NCBI RefSeq assembly: GCF_002931075.1
Contig: NZ_PSTQ01000011.1
Location: 62,001-126,000 of the forward strand
DNA length: 64,000 nt
Direction: 5' to 3'
DNA from: Pseudoclavibacter sp. AY1F1
GTDB lineage: Bacteria; Actinomycetota; Actinomycetes; Actinomycetales; Microbacteriaceae
The first letter of the stretch is position 1. Each line of letters opens with the position of its first letter. Shown one piece after another: positions 41,866-48,768 of the stretch. The notes beneath the pieces are model-generated. The model saw only the letters and a program-made list of their open reading frames with translations. It did no database searches and was not told the origin of the DNA. Both the position numbers and the translations under genes were made by a program.

Positions 41866-41984
41866 GGTGCTTCCTTTCGGGAAGATCAGCAACTCTCTGA
41901 TCGTATGGGCGCTCGCCCGGGCACTGCGGCGTGTCGCGGCGCGGCTCGGGTTGGCCCGGAGGTGCGCTGGTTACGCTCGTTCGC

Positions 41985-44900
41985 ATGCGCATCCCGTCGG
42001 AACCAAGTGAAGAATCACGGCACGACGGCGCGACTCCTCCTCCGATCGGAATCAACGGCACGAGCGGCCGCGGCGACACTGATCGCCGTGCACGCGGTCT
42101 CGAGGAGGTCGACGCCAGGCGGGTGCAGCGCGCCGATTTTGTGAAGCAGGTGCTCGCGAAGCGCGATGGCGGCTGGGATGCGAGCGACGAGACTCGCGCC
42201 GAGACTCGCGCCGACGCTCCGGGTGCGGACGCAGCGGACTCGATTGATCCTGCCTCCTCTGCCGACTCTGGCCCAACTACCGACTCTGGCCCAACTACCG
42301 ACTCTGGCCCAACTACCGACTCTGGCCCAACTACCGACTCTGGCCCAACTACCGGCTCTGCGCCCTCGACCGACTCTGCGCCCTCGACCGACTCTGCCCC
42401 ATTAACGGTTGCGGACACCGAAGAGCGCCTCGACTCCGAGCCCCGCGAGTCAGGGCGAGCGGATGTGCCAGCTGGCCCTTCCGCGAACGAGACCGTGGCC
42501 GTCGACGACTCGATCGTCGACGCTCTGCGCGCCGAAGGTCGCACTGCCGGCGGCTCGCGCGGCGACGCGCCACGCCCCGACCCTGCCCCACGCGTCGACC
42601 AGACGGTGGCTGTCGACGACTCGATCGTCGCCGCACTCCGTGCCGAGGGGCGCACTGCTTCCGCTGACCGCGACGCGAAAGCCAACGCTCCGAGCGCTGA
42701 CGAGACCGCGCGTGTCGACCAGACGGTCGCCGTCGACGACTCGATCGTCGCGGCGCTCCGCGCCGAAGGACGCACAGCAACCGGCGATCGCGATGCGAGC
42801 GACGCGAGTGCCCCAAACGCCGAGAGCTCCGCCGCTTCCGCCTCCAAGCCGCCAGTGGACGACGCACCGCCGACCGCCGCGATCCCGGTTGTGACGCAGC
42901 TTCGCGACGTCCCGGTCTCGGAGGCCCTGCCAGCTGCGCTTGCGCTGCTGCGCGGCTGGCGCGAGCAGGTCGCCGCGGCGGACGCGCAGCGTGCCTCCGC
43001 GGTCGAGGCGGCCTCGAGCCAGCGCGCCAAGCGTCGCGCCGACACCACCTCGGAGCTTGATCGTGTGCTCGCCGGACCGGACGGCGAGGTGTTCCTCCGC
43101 TCCCTGATCGACGAGGTCATTCGGCCGGACGACGCGATCGCGGCGGGAAACGGCCTCGGCGACCTCGCTCCGAAACTTCCCGCGAGCCTCTCGCCCGGCA
43201 CGAAACGCGCGTTCCAACTGGGCGCTTTCGCGGGGCCAGGCGTGCCGTGGCTCGCGGTGCCGCTCATGCGCCGAGCCACGTCGGCGTTCTTCGGCGACGA
43301 CACCGTCCGCAACGTGCCCTCCGAGATCTCCGCCGCGACCGAGCGCGCGGCGACTCGCGGAGCCGCGTCGCGCATCCGCCTGCTCGGTGACGCGGTGCTC
43401 GGGGAGCGGGGCTCGAACGCGAGCCTCGAGACCTACACGCAGCTGCTCGCCGCCGGCCAGGTGCGCGAGCTCGAGCTTCGGGTCGTCGACATCGAGGCGC
43501 AGCCGGCCCTCTGGGACTTCGACGGCACCCTCGAGCGTGTCGTCTTCAAGCTCTCGGCGCTCGGCCGCGCCGCGCTTACCGCGCCGACGCCGCCGCTGAT
43601 CATGCTGCGCGCGCAGTCGTCGGCTGACCTCGAGCTCACGGTGCAGGCGTTCATGCGCGCCTTCGAGCAGGAGGAGCTGCGCGGCCTGCACGTCGGCATC
43701 TCCCTCCCCGCCCAGTTCCCCGAGACGCCGGGTCTGCTTCGCCGCATCGGCGGATGGGCGCACATGCGCCGCGAGGACCTCGGCTCCGACATCACGGTCG
43801 CCATCACACGCGACGCGAACCACGAGCTCGAGCGGGCCGACGCCGTGATCAACGGCTGGCGCCTCGCCACGTACGCGTCGGAGGCTGATGTCGACGCCAA
43901 CTTCGCACGCCTCCTCGACGAGGCCCTCGCGATCGACCACGTCGCCGCGTTCAGGGTCGAGGTCGAAGCGGATGCGCGCCGAGACGTCGCGCTCGCGGCC
44001 GCCATCGCGAAGGCGCGAGGCCTGCCGAAGCCCGTGCGGGTCGTCGTGCCGCGCTCGGCAGACGATGCGGCGCTGGAGCGCATCCGCTCGGCTGGCGTCG
44101 AGCTTGTGGAGCGCACACCCGTCGTAACGGGCACCACGCAGCGCCACGCGGCCAGTTATCTCCAGCACCGAGTCGACGTGCGAGCCAGGCAGCTCGGCGC
44201 GGAGCCAGCCGACGCGGCGCAGGCGGACCAGCCTTCGATCGCTCCAGGGATCGGTGCCGACGCCGTGCATCCCGACGACGAGCGCCTCCTCAGCGCGACG
44301 GCGCGCATGCGGCAGATCGACTCGGGCCCGAACCGCGAGCAAGACCGGGTGCTCGCGGACGACGCGGCCACCGTCACCGCCAGCATCCAGCTCGAGCTCT
44401 TCCCCGATGGTCTCTTCGAAGACGAGGAGCCTGCGGCCGAGCGGCCGGCACGCGTGAAGAAGCTGAAGCCGGCCTCGAAGCCCGTCATCGAAGACGACGA
44501 AGAGGTCACCGAGAACCCCGCAGACACGGGCCCAAGCCCCCGCCTCACCGAGGTGGTGCTCGGCCTCAAGCGCGGCAGGCTGCTGCGCAACACGTTCCGC
44601 AACGCGCCAGGAACCGACCCGTCGCTCGCCAGCAACCGCGAGTGGCTGCTCTCCATCCAGCGTCGAGTGCCGCGCAGCGAGCTCGGCATCGACGAGGTCG
44701 AGCGGCACCTGCTGCACGAGCCGGAAGACGTGGATGCCCTGCTCTCGCGAGCAGAGCGTGCGGCTGAGCCGTGGGCCCAGAAGCCAGGCTGGGAGCGGGC
44801 GGCCGTGCTCGAGAAGGTGGCGAAGGCGCTCGAAGCGAACCGGGCGCGCCTCATCGAGGTCGCCGTCTCCGAGACGGGGACCCCGCTGCCCGACGTCGAC

Positions 44901-46700
44901 GCCGACGTGAGCCGCTGCGTCGACCTCGCCAACTACTACGCGCACCTCGCACGCCAGCTCGACCGCATGCAGGGCGCAGACTTCGAACCCGTCGCCGTGA
45001 CCGTCGTCACCCCGTCGTGGGTTCCGGCCGTCGCAGGCAGCGCCGGGCACACGGCGCAGGCGCTCGCGGCCGGAAGCGCGGTTGTGCTGAAGCCATCGCC
45101 GCGCACGCGCCGCACGGCGGCCGTCTTCGCCGAGGTGCTCTGGGATGCGGACATCCCCCGCGACCTCGTGCAGCTCGCGATCTGCGACGAGAGCCTCCTC
45201 TCAGATGAGCAGCTCGGACAGATGCTCATCACCGACGACCGCGTTCAACGCGTGCTGCTCAGCGGCAACTGGGAGACGGCGCGCTCGTTCCTGCGCTGGC
45301 GCCCCGACCTGCCACTCATCGCCGCGACAAGCGGCAAGAACTCCATGATCATCACGCCGAGCGCCGACCTCGACCGGGCGGCCCTCGACGTCGCCCGCAG
45401 CGCGTTCCTCAGCGCGGGACAGCGACCCGGCCACGCGGGCACAGTCATCCTCGTCGGCTCCGTGGCGCGTTCGAAACGCTTCCACGAGCAGCTCGCCGAC
45501 GCCGTCGCCTCTCTTCGCATCGGTTATCCGAGCGACCCAGGCGCTGTTGTCGGGCCGCTCGTCTCCCCACCCGACTCGCAGCTGCGCTTCGCGCTGTCCT
45601 CGCTCGGCGAGGGCGAGTCGTGGCTCGTCGAGCCACGCCAGCTCGATGACACGGGCCGCCTCTGGTCCCCCGGAATCCGCGTCGGAGTGAAACCCGGCAG
45701 CTATCAGCACGTCACCGAATTCTTCGGCCCGGTGCTGAGCGTCATGCACACGCACACGCTCGACGAGGCCATCCGCCTGCAGAACTCGACCCAGTACGGG
45801 CTGACGGCGGGCATCCACTCGCTCGACCGCACCGAGATCGCCGAATGGCTGCGGCGAGTCGAGGCGGGCAACCTCTACGTGAACCGAGACATCCTCGGCA
45901 ACACGCCCCAGCGGCAGCCGTTCGGTGGCTGGCTCCGCTCGATGGTCGGCACCGCCACGAAGTTCGGCGGGCCCAACTCGCTGCTATCGCTCGGCACGTG
46001 GCGCTCCAACCACGGCGAGCAGTCCCAGACCCTGCACCTGCGCGGCATCGACGAGCAGGCCACGGCGCTCATCGAGTCGGCGGCACCCTTCATGGACTAC
46101 GAGACCTTCGACCGCCTCCGCCGCGCATCCCTCAGCGACCAGATCGCGTTCAACGAGGAGTTCGGCGAGGTCTCTGACGTCTCGAACCTGAAGTTCGAAC
46201 GCAACCTCATGCGGTACATCCCGGCTCGCGCCACGATCCGCGCGGCCGAGGACGCGACGCTCGCCGACCTCATCCGCGTCATCGTCGCGGCACGCATCGT
46301 GCGCTCGAAGCCGCTCATCACGTCCGGCATCGAGGTGCCGGAAGCGGTGCTCGCCGAACTCCAAGCGCAGAACCTCACGGTGCAGCGCGAGACAGACGCG
46401 GAGTTCGCGGAGCGCGCGCGCAGCGGTGGCATCGAGACGCTGCGGGTGCGCCTCGTCGGCGGCAAGCGGCGCGAGTTCTGCGACGCGCTGCAGGGCGACC
46501 CCGACATCTCCATCTGGTCGGACGAAGTGACGCCCGCCGGTCGCATCGAGGCGCTCCCCTTCCTCCGCGAGCAGGCGATCTCCATCACCGCGCACCGGAA
46601 CGGACACCCGGACCCGCGCATGCAGCAGCTGTTCCCGTACGAGCAGACCTTCGACCCGGACGCGCCCATCACGCAGGGCCCCATCAAGTCCCGCGGATAG
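41985..46700 (+). CDS. PutA-like protein lacking catalytic residues in both domains (probable pseudoenzyme)
   Basis: This is 1571 residues, much longer than usual bifunctional proline dehydrogenase / pyrroline-5-carboxylate dehydrogenase. Residues about 20-290 are a disordered repeat-rich insert, about 340-740 align to the proline dehydrogenase barrel, about 880-1340 to the aldehyde dehydrogenase, and a C-terminal tail follows. Family landmarks have changed: expected RLVKGAN reads AITRDAN, YLVRRLEEN reads YLQHRVDVR, AETSGKNA reads AATSGKNS (general base Glu to Ala1114) and AGQ(K/R)CS reads AGQRPGH (nucleophile Cys to Pro1148). Flanking segments such as GNLYVNRDILG and LTEFFGPVL-like VTEFFGPVL stay intact, so the fold is kept and sequencing error is unlikely. 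The start is uncertain (ATG 41985 or GTG 41931). Confidence 0.85.
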   Translation: MRIPSEPSEESRHDGATPPPIGINGTSGRGDTDRRARGLEEVDARRVQRADFVKQVLAKRDGGWDASDETRAETRADAPGADAADSIDPASSADSGPTTDSGPTTDSGPTTDSGPTTDSGPTTGSAPSTDSAPSTDSAPLTVADTEERLDSEPRESGRADVPAGPSANETVAVDDSIVDALRAEGRTAGGSRGDAPRPDPAPRVDQTVAVDDSIVAALRAEGRTASADRDAKANAPSADETARVDQTVAVDDSIVAALRAEGRTATGDRDASDASAPNAESSAASASKPPVDDAPPTAAIPVVTQLRDVPVSEALPAALALLRGWREQVAAADAQRASAVEAASSQRAKRRADTTSELDRVLAGPDGEVFLRSLIDEVIRPDDAIAAGNGLGDLAPKLPASLSPGTKRAFQLGAFAGPGVPWLAVPLMRRATSAFFGDDTVRNVPSEISAATERAATRGAASRIRLLGDAVLGERGSNASLETYTQLLAAGQVRELELRVVDIEAQPALWDFDGTLERVVFKLSALGRAALTAPTPPLIMLRAQSSADLELTVQAFMRAFEQEELRGLHVGISLPAQFPETPGLLRRIGGWAHMRREDLGSDITVAITRDANHELERADAVINGWRLATYASEADVDANFARLLDEALAIDHVAAFRVEVEADARRDVALAAAIAKARGLPKPVRVVVPRSADDAALERIRSAGVELVERTPVVTGTTQRHAASYLQHRVDVRARQLGAEPADAAQADQPSIAPGIGADAVHPDDERLLSATARMRQIDSGPNREQDRVLADDAATVTASIQLELFPDGLFEDEEPAAERPARVKKLKPASKPVIEDDEEVTENPADTGPSPRLTEVVLGLKRGRLLRNTFRNAPGTDPSLASNREWLLSIQRRVPRSELGIDEVERHLLHEPEDVDALLSRAERAAEPWAQKPGWERAAVLEKVAKALEANRARLIEVAVSETGTPLPDVDADVSRCVDLANYYAHLARQLDRMQGADFEPVAVTVVTPSWVPAVAGSAGHTAQALAAGSAVVLKPSPRTRRTAAVFAEVLWDADIPRDLVQLAICDESLLSDEQLGQMLITDDRVQRVLLSGNWETARSFLRWRPDLPLIAATSGKNSMIITPSADLDRAALDVARSAFLSAGQRPGHAGTVILVGSVARSKRFHEQLADAVASLRIGYPSDPGAVVGPLVSPPDSQLRFALSSLGEGESWLVEPRQLDDTGRLWSPGIRVGVKPGSYQHVTEFFGPVLSVMHTHTLDEAIRLQNSTQYGLTAGIHSLDRTEIAEWLRRVEAGNLYVNRDILGNTPQRQPFGGWLRSMVGTATKFGGPNSLLSLGTWRSNHGEQSQTLHLRGIDEQATALIESAAPFMDYETFDRLRRASLSDQIAFNEEFGEVSDVSNLKFERNLMRYIPARATIRAAEDATLADLIRVIVAARIVRSKPLITSGIEVPEAVLAELQAQNLTVQRETDAEFAERARSGGIETLRVRLVGGKRREFCDALQGDPDISIWSDEVTPAGRIEALPFLREQAISITAHRNGHPDPRMQQLFPYEQTFDPDAPITQGPIKSRG
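42264..42407 (+). repeat. 18-base tandem repeats inside the PutA-like gene
   Basis: gactctggcccaactacc occurs five times exactly (42264-42353), then three diverged copies based on gactctgcgccctcgacc. They encode a (D/G)SGPTT-type run. All copies keep the reading frame. Confidence 0.95.
42490..42780 (+). repeat. Three 20-residue repeats inside the PutA-like gene
   Basis: The peptide TVAVDDSIVxALRAEGRTA occurs three times (about 42492, 42602 and 42722) with 17-20 variable residues between. Each could form a short helix usable as a docking motif. Confidence 0.9.
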
Positions 46701-46980: not shown

Positions 46981-47108
46981 CGGCCGGTCTCCGCTGAGTA
47001 CCCACGGCGCGCGCTCCCGGCAGAAGAGTGAGGCAGATGCAGACCGGCCGGTCTCCGCTGAGTACCCACGGCGCGCGCTCCCGGCAGAAGAGTGAGGCAG
47101 ATGCAGAC
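46981..47108. repeat. Exact 64-base tandem duplication
   Basis: The segment beginning cggccggtctccgctgagta is repeated head to tail (46981-47044, 47045-47108) with no difference seen, implying a recent event. Confidence 0.92.
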
Positions 47109-47144
47109 TCCTGCGATGCGGAACGTGCGTCTGCCCCACTCTTC
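47087..47144. repeat. 19-base hairpin arms overlapping the tandem duplication
   Basis: gaagagtgaggcagatgca pairs with tgcgtctgccccactcttc with one mismatch and one G-T pair, around a 20-base loop. Only the second tandem copy has the matching arm. Confidence 0.75.
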
Positions 47145-47303
47145 GCGGCGGAGGAACGGATCGGCAGCAGCAGCGGCAGGGGCGCGGCGGGGCGCGGGCC
47201 AGAGCGGCGGGGCGCGGGCGCGGACGCGGGCACCCGCACGGACGCGAGCGCGAGCTGGCGCGGGCACCGGATGCGGGCCTCGTGGCGGCGCAGGCGCGTC
47301 GCC

Positions 47304-47309
47304 TACGAT
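47304..47309 (+). promoter_or_regulatory. -10 hexamer of the GlcD-like gene (leaderless)
   Basis: TACGAT ends 7 bases before the ATG. Confidence 0.45.
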
Positions 47310-47316
47310 CGGGCGC

Positions 47317-48768
47317 ATGTCTGCCGTTGTCGCCGGAACCCCCAAGTCCCCTCAGCCCCCTCAGTCCCCCAAGTCCCCCATGTCCCCTGAGCCCGTGAAG
47401 TTCGCGCTCGCCGTCGATGCCCTCGCTCGCGAGCTGCCTGGCCGAGTCGTGACGGAACCGGAGTCGCTCGAGCCGCTGCGCGTCGACCGCTCCGGCGTGG
47501 TCGCGGCCGGCGTTCCGCTCGCGCTGGTCGAGGCCGAGTCTGTCGAGGATGTGCAGGCGGCGTGCCGAATCGCGAGCGAGTTCGGCGTGCCGGTTGTCAC
47601 GCGCGGGGCAGGCACGGGGCTTGCGGGCGGCGGGGCCGCAGGCCATGGCGAGATCGTGCTGTCGACGCTGCGCATGAACCAGATCCTCGAGGTCTCGCCG
47701 GCCAACCAGCTCGCGGTCGTGCAGCCTGGCATCCTCAATGGCGCCCTCAACGAAGAGCTCGAGCGGCACGGTTTCTGGTGGGCGCCGGATCCGGCTTCGA
47801 AGCACATCTCGACTGTGGGCGGGAACATTGCGACCAACGCCGGTGGCCTGCTGTGCGCTAAATACGGGGTGACGCGGGAGGCTGTGCTCGGCCTCAAGGT
47901 CGTGCTCATCGACGGTTCGGTCATCGACGTCGGCCACCGCACGGTGAAGGGTGTCACGGGCCTCGACCTGTGTGCGCTCATGGTCGGTTCGGAGGGCACG
48001 CTCGGCGTGATCGTTGAGTGCACGCTCAAGCTGCGCCCGCTTGTGGCGGGGGTCGTGCCGACGATCGGCGCGTACTTCACCGATGTGGGGAGCGCGGCGC
48101 GTGCCTCCGCGGCCGTCACGGCGTCGGGCATTCAGCCAGCCATCATGGAGCTGATGGATGCGGGCGTTCTGCGCGCAGTATCCGCGTACACGGGGGTTGA
48201 CCTCGCCTCGCACGGCGACTCTTATTTGCTCATCCAGACGGATGGCGCGAACGCGGTCGCCGAAGCCGAGGGCATCGTCGAGGTGCTGCGCGCCAACGGC
48301 GGCACGGTCGAGATGACGACCGACCCGCAGTCGGCGCTGACGCTCGTGGATGTGCGGCGCCAGGCGTACGCGGCCAAGGAGGCGCTCGGCAACGTGCTGG
48401 TCGAGGACGTGTCCGTACCCCGTGACAAGCTGCCGGACATGTTCGCGAAGATCGACGAGGTCGCGGCGCGCACCGGCACCACGATCGTCACGGTCGCGCA
48501 CGCTGGCGACGGCAACCTGCATCCGACGTTCATCTACGACCGAGCGGAGTCCGTCGTGCCGCAGGCGGTGTGGGATGCGGCCGACGAGCTGTTCACGTAC
48601 GCCATCTCGATCGGCGGCACCCTCACGGGGGAGCACGGCGTCGGCCTCCTCAAGCGGCAATGGCTTGGCGAGGAGCTCGGCGAGCGCCAGTTCGAGCTGC
48701 AGCGCGGTATCAAGCGGCTCTTCGACCCGCAGGGGCTCCTCAACCCTGGCAAGGTCTTCGCCGAGTAG
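47317..48768 (+). CDS. FAD-linked 2-hydroxyacid oxidase/dehydrogenase (GlcD-like)
   Basis: This is 483 residues. PVVTRGAGTGLAGGGAAGHGEIVLST near residue 88 and HISTVGGNIATNAGGLLCAKYGVTREAVLGLKVVL near 165 form the PCMH FAD-binding domain. The C-terminal FAD-oxidase part ends with VAHAGDGNLHPTF near 390 and SIGGTLTGEHGVGLLK, the GlcD/D-lactate dehydrogenase signature. It should oxidise D-lactate, glycolate or 2-hydroxyglutarate. The first 25 residues are a Pro/Ser/Lys repeat encoded by tandem cccctcag-like units, an unusual addition. No GlcE/GlcF partner is adjacent. Confidence 0.88.
   Translation: MSAVVAGTPKSPQPPQSPKSPMSPEPVKFALAVDALARELPGRVVTEPESLEPLRVDRSGVVAAGVPLALVEAESVEDVQAACRIASEFGVPVVTRGAGTGLAGGGAAGHGEIVLSTLRMNQILEVSPANQLAVVQPGILNGALNEELERHGFWWAPDPASKHISTVGGNIATNAGGLLCAKYGVTREAVLGLKVVLIDGSVIDVGHRTVKGVTGLDLCALMVGSEGTLGVIVECTLKLRPLVAGVVPTIGAYFTDVGSAARASAAVTASGIQPAIMELMDAGVLRAVSAYTGVDLASHGDSYLLIQTDGANAVAEAEGIVEVLRANGGTVEMTTDPQSALTLVDVRRQAYAAKEALGNVLVEDVSVPRDKLPDMFAKIDEVAARTGTTIVTVAHAGDGNLHPTFIYDRAESVVPQAVWDAADELFTYAISIGGTLTGEHGVGLLKRQWLGEELGERQFELQRGIKRLFDPQGLLNPGKVFAE

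Follow-up and report, generated by a model that had tools for sequence, protein, structure and literature searches.

The gene on the forward strand at positions 41985..46700 of the window, a 64,000-nucleotide stretch of the genome of Pseudoclavibacter sp. AY1F1, encodes a full-length homologue of the bifunctional enzyme PutA in which both enzymatic halves have lost their catalytic residues. With these residues gone, the fold predicted to be kept and the gene under purifying selection, its assignment as a pseudoenzyme is strongly supported by sequence comparison and structure modelling. A sequence-only reading of the window had proposed such a pseudoenzyme with a non-catalytic role. The proposal gains from an intact PutA in the same genome, from orthologues with the same losses and from strong selection, while the non-catalytic function itself is the part that we infer.

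The 4.7 kb frame is free of stops, as first described: from the ATG at 41985 it codes for 1571 amino acids and a stop codon, and the longest frame begins at a GTG at 41931 (41931/41985-46700, + strand). Homology along the whole of PutA, also claimed from the sequence, was borne out by a whole-chain alignment to the intact PutA of the genome, in the order proline dehydrogenase (PRODH) barrel, aldehyde dehydrogenase (ALDH) domain and C-terminal region. Pfam domains and Foldseek and VIA-align matches to PutA place the protein in the same family. Pfam scores Aldedh at 263.6 bits and Pro_dh weakly at 43.4 bits (cut-off 27); in four of four other members tested Pro_dh falls under the cut-off, three of them giving no match at all. 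The NCBIfam models NF008869 and NF008772 do not discriminate, scoring 216 and 190.5 bits for the pseudoenzyme and 374.8 and 291.8 bits for the intact PutA of the genome against cut-offs of 747 and 1750.

The chain opens with a low-complexity, net acidic extension (amino acids 1-357; 41985..43055, + strand; 65 D/E, 39 K/R) that evolves fast, at a dN/dS of 0.22-0.28, and is mostly absent from the genome's active PutA. It holds three copies of the peptide repeat TVAVDDSIVxALRAEGRTA (42487..42792, + strand; starting at amino acids 170, 207 and 247), of which some close relatives have two. An in-frame 18-bp tandem repeat encoding DSGPTT units lies at 42268-42357, where close relatives differ. The PRODH-like (beta-alpha)8 barrel follows (amino acids 358-737; 43056..44195, + strand) and is joined to the ALDH-like domain (amino acids 869-1342; 44589..46010, + strand) through a stretch that includes a family-specific linker with near-invariant residues, ADDAATVTASIQLELFPDGLFEDEEP (44355..44432, + strand). 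This linker, DDAATVTASIxLELFPxGLFEDE, is conserved in the pseudo family and was seen in none of the 11 active PutA rows compared. Readings of the N-terminal repeat and of QLELF as FHA- or sliding-clamp-type elements were dropped; QLELF is not kept as such in relatives. In the C-terminal region (46011..46697, + strand), which includes LPFLREQAISITAHR, none of the 20 active-invariant columns is lost, and 14 of the 20 are kept in all 19 pseudo members.

Catalytic positions were read from an alignment of 19 pseudo members with 31 active Microbacteriaceae PutAs, using the numbering of E. coli K-12 PutA and checking the codons of the window gene. The actives are a chosen subset of matches (18 from Microbacteriaceae, 13 from Pseudoclavibacter and Gulosibacter), and the pseudo members are 19 of 21, one copy with frame breaks (G398) and one split over two contigs (G399) being left out. 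In PutA, K329 is described as the catalytic base and R555/R556 as proline-binding, according to passages of PMC10651016. The window protein carries Arg499 at K329 (codon 43479..43481, + strand), together with D370>R542, Q404>P575, R431>A606, K434>R609 and Y540>R710. We take D370, Q404, R431 and K434 to have FAD-side roles. In the ALDH half the nucleophile C917 is P1148 (45426..45428), the base E883 is A1114 (45324..45326) and the Asn N779 is V1013 (45021..45023), all three codons on the + strand. C917, E883, N779, K329, D370, Q404, R431, K434 and Y540 are each present in 31/31 actives and in 0/19 pseudo members. The Cys position is filled by Pro in 15 members, Ala in three and Thr in one, with Pro also in the G399 fragment; the Glu position is filled by Ala in eight, Gly in five, Ser in five and Met in one. 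An earlier residue table of 19 pseudo and 37 active proteins agrees, two of its actives having Gln for the Glu that adjoins the Arg pair.

Both ALDH substitutions named by the sequence-only reading, Cys to Pro and Glu to Ala, are thus found in gap-free alignment at their sites. The possibility that the motifs were simply displaced was rejected by alignment: no gap occurs at these sites against the intact PutA of the genome, nor against the solved PutA 5ux5 in the part compared. For the PRODH half the reported loss of the Lys and Arg residues is real in substance and misplaced in detail, since the segment AITRDAN corresponds to K434 and it is at another place, R499, that the base K329 has been replaced. 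The Arg pair is a partial case. In the window R555 is H728, R556 is kept as R729 and the nearby E559 is V732; across the family 3/19 members retain R555 and 12/19 retain R556, against 31/31 actives for both. By K329 and R555/R556 and by D370, Q404, R431 and K434 the protein does not qualify as a proline dehydrogenase, nor does it qualify as a glutamate-semialdehyde dehydrogenase by the Cys nucleophile, Glu base and oxyanion Asn (0/19 each).

The losses had also been called selective, a description that fits the ALDH half better. There, of 137 columns invariant in the 31 actives, 11 hold a residue that none of the 19 pseudo members has at that position, and these 11 include the catalytic Cys, Glu and Asn (hypergeometric p 4e-4); the loss of ALDH catalytic residues is not chance. 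Losses in the PRODH domain are more widespread, taking in 32 of 111 active-invariant columns, and enrichment at the site is weak, with 7 of 13 author-chosen site positions lost (p 0.04).

Modelled alone, the PRODH-like domain gives a structure with pLDDT 89.2, pTM 0.87 and eight barrel strands. VIA-align superposes it on PutA 5ur2 with Z 36.3 and an rmsd of 2.4 Å over 342 residues and on 5ux5 with Z 35.3 and 2.0 Å over 302, and the barrel fold is therefore predicted to be kept in the dead PRODH half. The AlphaFold model of the whole length is poor (pTM 0.42; TM-scores of 0.25-0.34 to PutA chains) and was not used for inter-domain architecture. Within or directly after strands 103-110, 138-142, 181-185, 213-218, 246-251, 299-304 and 349-357 of the barrel (numbered as the residue minus 357) stand R463, E497, R542, P575, R609, E659 and R710, in place of N155, S189, D234, Q267, K301, G351 and Y402 of the active copy. 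Five of the replacements (R463, R542, P575, E659, R710) occur in 19/19 members, R609 in 18/19, and position 497 is Glu or Asp in 19/19. Judged by the alignment, these seven changes are new conserved residues and not mere drift. The Arg/Glu/Pro set is either a candidate ligand site or a packed core.

The same catalytic losses mark an orthologous family in two genera. A pseudo-PutA is present in 10 of 10 Pseudoclavibacter and 11 of 11 Gulosibacter genomes searched; one of the 11 Gulosibacter copies has frame breaks and one is split over two contigs. A profile search of 398 Microbacteriaceae genomes gave 19 matches of at least 1653 bits and then 1160, the 11 loci ranking next carrying intact motifs. 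Across 396 genomes from the order, the highest score besides that of the window itself was 923 bits. A pattern scan of GTDB r220 contigs, which detects relatives carrying one of two peptide patterns, returned 16 loci. Fifteen belong to Pseudoclavibacter, Gulosibacter, [Zimmermannella] or a Microbacteriaceae MAG, and the sixteenth (Arthrobacter, 30% over 77 residues) was not counted. The plasmid collection searched gave no match. The 19 pseudo members form one clade (SH-aLRT 100) on a long stem, and their frames are open over the matched core; a TGA in G151 is the gene's own stop codon, the match having overrun the frame end. In Gulosibacter sediminis (L192, G398:C42) the gene shows two compensating frame shifts. 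Its three pieces are 93-98% identical to a relative and the stretch has 5 N, and an assembly error is the likely cause.

Selection was measured as pairwise Nei-Gojobori dN/dS between the window gene and four close orthologues, with the active PutA taken over the same four genome pairs. In the ALDH domain the pseudoenzyme stands at 0.013-0.022 and the active paralogue at 0.034-0.054; in the PRODH domain the values are 0.045-0.083 and 0.028-0.058. The dead ALDH half is therefore more constrained than its active counterpart and the dead PRODH half somewhat less. The linker gives 0.064-0.126 and the C-terminal region 0.038-0.105, and the check on dN/dS that had been suggested returned strong purifying selection and no general decay. 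In the pseudo ALDH domain dS is itself low (0.26-0.39), perhaps through some other constraint on the DNA. Over longer distances the pseudo-PutA diverges more than the active PutA in nine of ten more distant genomes and equally in one, and it diverges slightly less in the two closest. Identity to the window is 0.55-0.57 for the pseudo and 0.73-0.76 for the active protein in three Pseudoclavibacter genomes, and a fourth gives 0.59 for both; six Gulosibacter genomes give 0.47-0.49 for the pseudo and 0.60-0.63 for the active protein.

The second, intact putA that the sequence-only reading advised looking for lies on another contig of the same 4.1-Mb, 29-contig genome. Its product of 1163 amino acids carries the KGAN, RRLEE, AETSGKN and GQKC motifs and shares 41% identity with the pseudoenzyme over aligned columns, rising to 46% over residues 866-1554. 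A Pro_dh search of 19 genomes found a strong match besides the pseudo gene in 17, with residues checked in 13 of the 17. In one of the other two (G073) the sole match was its own pseudo-PutA, with no intact proline dehydrogenase, and in the other (G217, one 2.0-Mb contig) there was no match at all. Both are rated 99% complete and both carry a full-length pseudo gene, which excludes a role strictly via an active PutA there, within that completeness. The suggestion of a partner for an active PutA elsewhere did not hold up as a sole role: the pseudo-PutA persists in these two genomes, and it sits at its own locus rather than beside the active gene.

No intact putA adjoins the pseudo gene in the neighborhoods examined. 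Downstream of it in the window is a GlcD-like, FAD-linked oxidase gene (47092..48768, + strand; 382 bits to TIGR00387, cut-off 567.9), as in 12 of 15 named loci. This frame is 558 amino acids long against 452-487 in L083, L084, L085, L090, L094 and L095, owing to a longer N-terminus, and the true start probably lies downstream of 47092. A perfect 64-bp tandem duplication occupies 46981-47108, between the pseudo-putA stop and the GlcD-like gene. In the 12 loci annotated further (L086-L097) a class-III aminotransferase, presumably RocD-like, follows in seven and a HemD-like gene lies upstream in seven; synteny is only partly conserved. A role in the P5C pathway via the aminotransferase was rejected, the gene being absent near L087, a close relative of the window, and at the locus of G217. 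The active putA, in turn, stands beside a LysR-type regulator in the window genome and in 6 of 14 other neighborhoods (14 genomes, 11 genera), two examples being confirmed with Pfam and the others judged by eye. Genes in these comparisons were called with a crude GC-position caller of our own, and Pfam was also used to check one label each of HemD, LplA, ADH and aminotransferase. The neighbors of the two genes differ, and the pseudo gene is therefore a paralogue with a location of its own.

A second dead PutA lineage was met in another Microbacteriaceae genus, at first as a 34%-identity match in G098. Its members are L196 (G098:C7:31626-35366), L197 (G216:C22), L198 (G167:C11) and L199 (G017:C1:2035581-2039288), covering four of four genomes of the genus; each genome also has a second PutA with intact motifs, and G216 is rated 9% contaminated. 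All four carry Arg at C917 and K329 and Ala or Ser at N779, and E883 is kept in three and Gln in one. L196-L198 have lost D370, Q404, K434, Y540 and R556 and keep R431 and R555, with Q404>Pro in common with the window's family. L199 has lost K329, Cys, Asn and Glu and keeps D370, Q404, R431, K434, Y540 and both Args, and by these residues it looks like an earlier stage of a PutA pseudoenzyme. In a 22-row tree the lineage nests among actives (enclosing forks at SH-aLRT 100 and 95). Uniting it with the window's family in a single clade is rejected by the AU test (p-AU 0.025, a borderline value with long branches), and the second lineage is apparently separate. Its closest pair has a dN/dS of 0.079. 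When 299 genomes were searched with a profile, no other member of it emerged, the scores dropping from 2197 to 1596 bits and the next 16 loci having intact motifs.

Since the gene remains under strong selection with the catalytic residues gone, a non-enzymatic job is probable. The pseudo-PutA would be, somewhat probably, a non-catalytic scaffold, that is, a structural or allosteric platform on the PutA fold. In the ancestor shared by Pseudoclavibacter and Gulosibacter, a putA duplicate may have turned into a conserved pseudoenzyme whose PutA body (the ALDH half and the C-terminal motif) was retained for assembly and for contact with partners. The emptied FAD/proline pocket may have been refilled by the conserved Arg/Glu/Pro set, as an internal salt-bridge core or a new anion site, and the LELFPxGLFEDE linker and long acidic tail could recruit one or more partners. 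Any such partner would not be the active PutA only, because the two genomes in which no intact proline dehydrogenase was found still have the pseudo-PutA. Counting against the scaffold reading are the raised dN/dS of the PRODH half, the greater divergence over longer distances, the failing Pro_dh matches, the uneven retention of NAD-site residues, the incomplete synteny and the frame breaks in Gulosibacter sediminis. A wider proposal, that Microbacteriaceae repeatedly turned PutA into a non-enzymatic receptor or scaffold, with the pocket of the window's family rebuilt as an Arg/Glu anion-binding site, is tentative and rather doubtful.

Overlapping with the scaffold reading, and unlikely in its own right, is a metabolite sensor or receptor whose Arg/Glu-lined pocket binds an anionic ligand and signals via the tail or linker. 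The conserved barrel-strand replacements, four Arg, one Glu, one Glu/Asp and one Pro, suit such a pocket, and the linker and tail offer a possible output; the same charged residues could, however, simply form pairs among themselves and plug the cavity. Regulation of the active PutA of the same cell, or hetero-oligomerization with it in the manner of a prozyme, is less likely still. PMC5201418 and PMC3663545 describe dead paralogues acting on their enzyme, and an active copy is at hand in the window genome and a strong Pro_dh match in 17/19; but this reading, if it needs an active PutA, is weakened by G073 and G217 and by the separate location of the two genes. That the protein is an active enzyme with changed chemistry is very improbable. 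The predicted barrel and the NAD-site residues kept by some members (Lys 15/19, Glu 8/19, Phe 7/19) would allow for it, against which stand the absence from 19/19 members of the ALDH Cys/Glu/Asn, K329, D370, Q404, R431 and K434 and the variable residues (P/A/T; A/G/S/M) at the ALDH chemistry positions. To a relic in decay we give almost no probability. The long stem branch and the two frame breaks in one genome are outweighed by frames open over the matched core in the 19 scored members and by presence in 21/21 genomes of the two genera, and the dN/dS values, 0.013-0.083 for the PRODH and ALDH domains and 0.038-0.105 for the C-terminal region, rule out ordinary decay. Values near 1 in folded domains and many null alleles were not seen.

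Homology annotation would call such proteins proline or aldehyde dehydrogenase although both halves lack catalytic residues. With two apparent origins and one member seemingly at an earlier stage, the order of pseudoenzyme birth, chemistry residues first and cofactor pocket later, becomes testable. Among the matches listed from open-licence PMC papers there was no paper on a catalytically dead PutA. With bifunctional PutA (proline dehydrogenase plus L-glutamate-semialdehyde dehydrogenase), of which the Corynebacterium freiburgense protein 5ux5 is the best solved sequence match, the pseudo-PutA has in common the domain order, the barrel and ALDH homology and the C-terminal motif. It differs in that neither half has its catalytic residues, D370/Q404/R431/K434 are lost as well, and an N-terminal extension of about 350 amino acids and the family-specific linker are added. 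Long PutAs contain a non-catalytic C-terminal ALDH-superfamily domain and have intact catalytic domains, whereas the pseudo-PutA lost residues in the catalytic domains themselves. Human ALDH16A1, unlike pseudo-PutA, has no proline dehydrogenase half. Like pseudo-PutA, it is an ALDH-fold pseudoenzyme without catalytic residues that has been kept in evolution, according to passages of PMC10650815. The trypanosome prozymes of AdoMetDC and deoxyhypusine synthase are each a dead paralogue beside an active copy and act on the partner enzyme, as set out in PMC5201418 and PMC3663545. In contrast to these prozymes, the pseudo-PutA is retained in two genomes in which the search found no active enzyme. 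It is a two-headed pseudoenzyme, with an ALDH half more strongly selected than the same half of the active copy.
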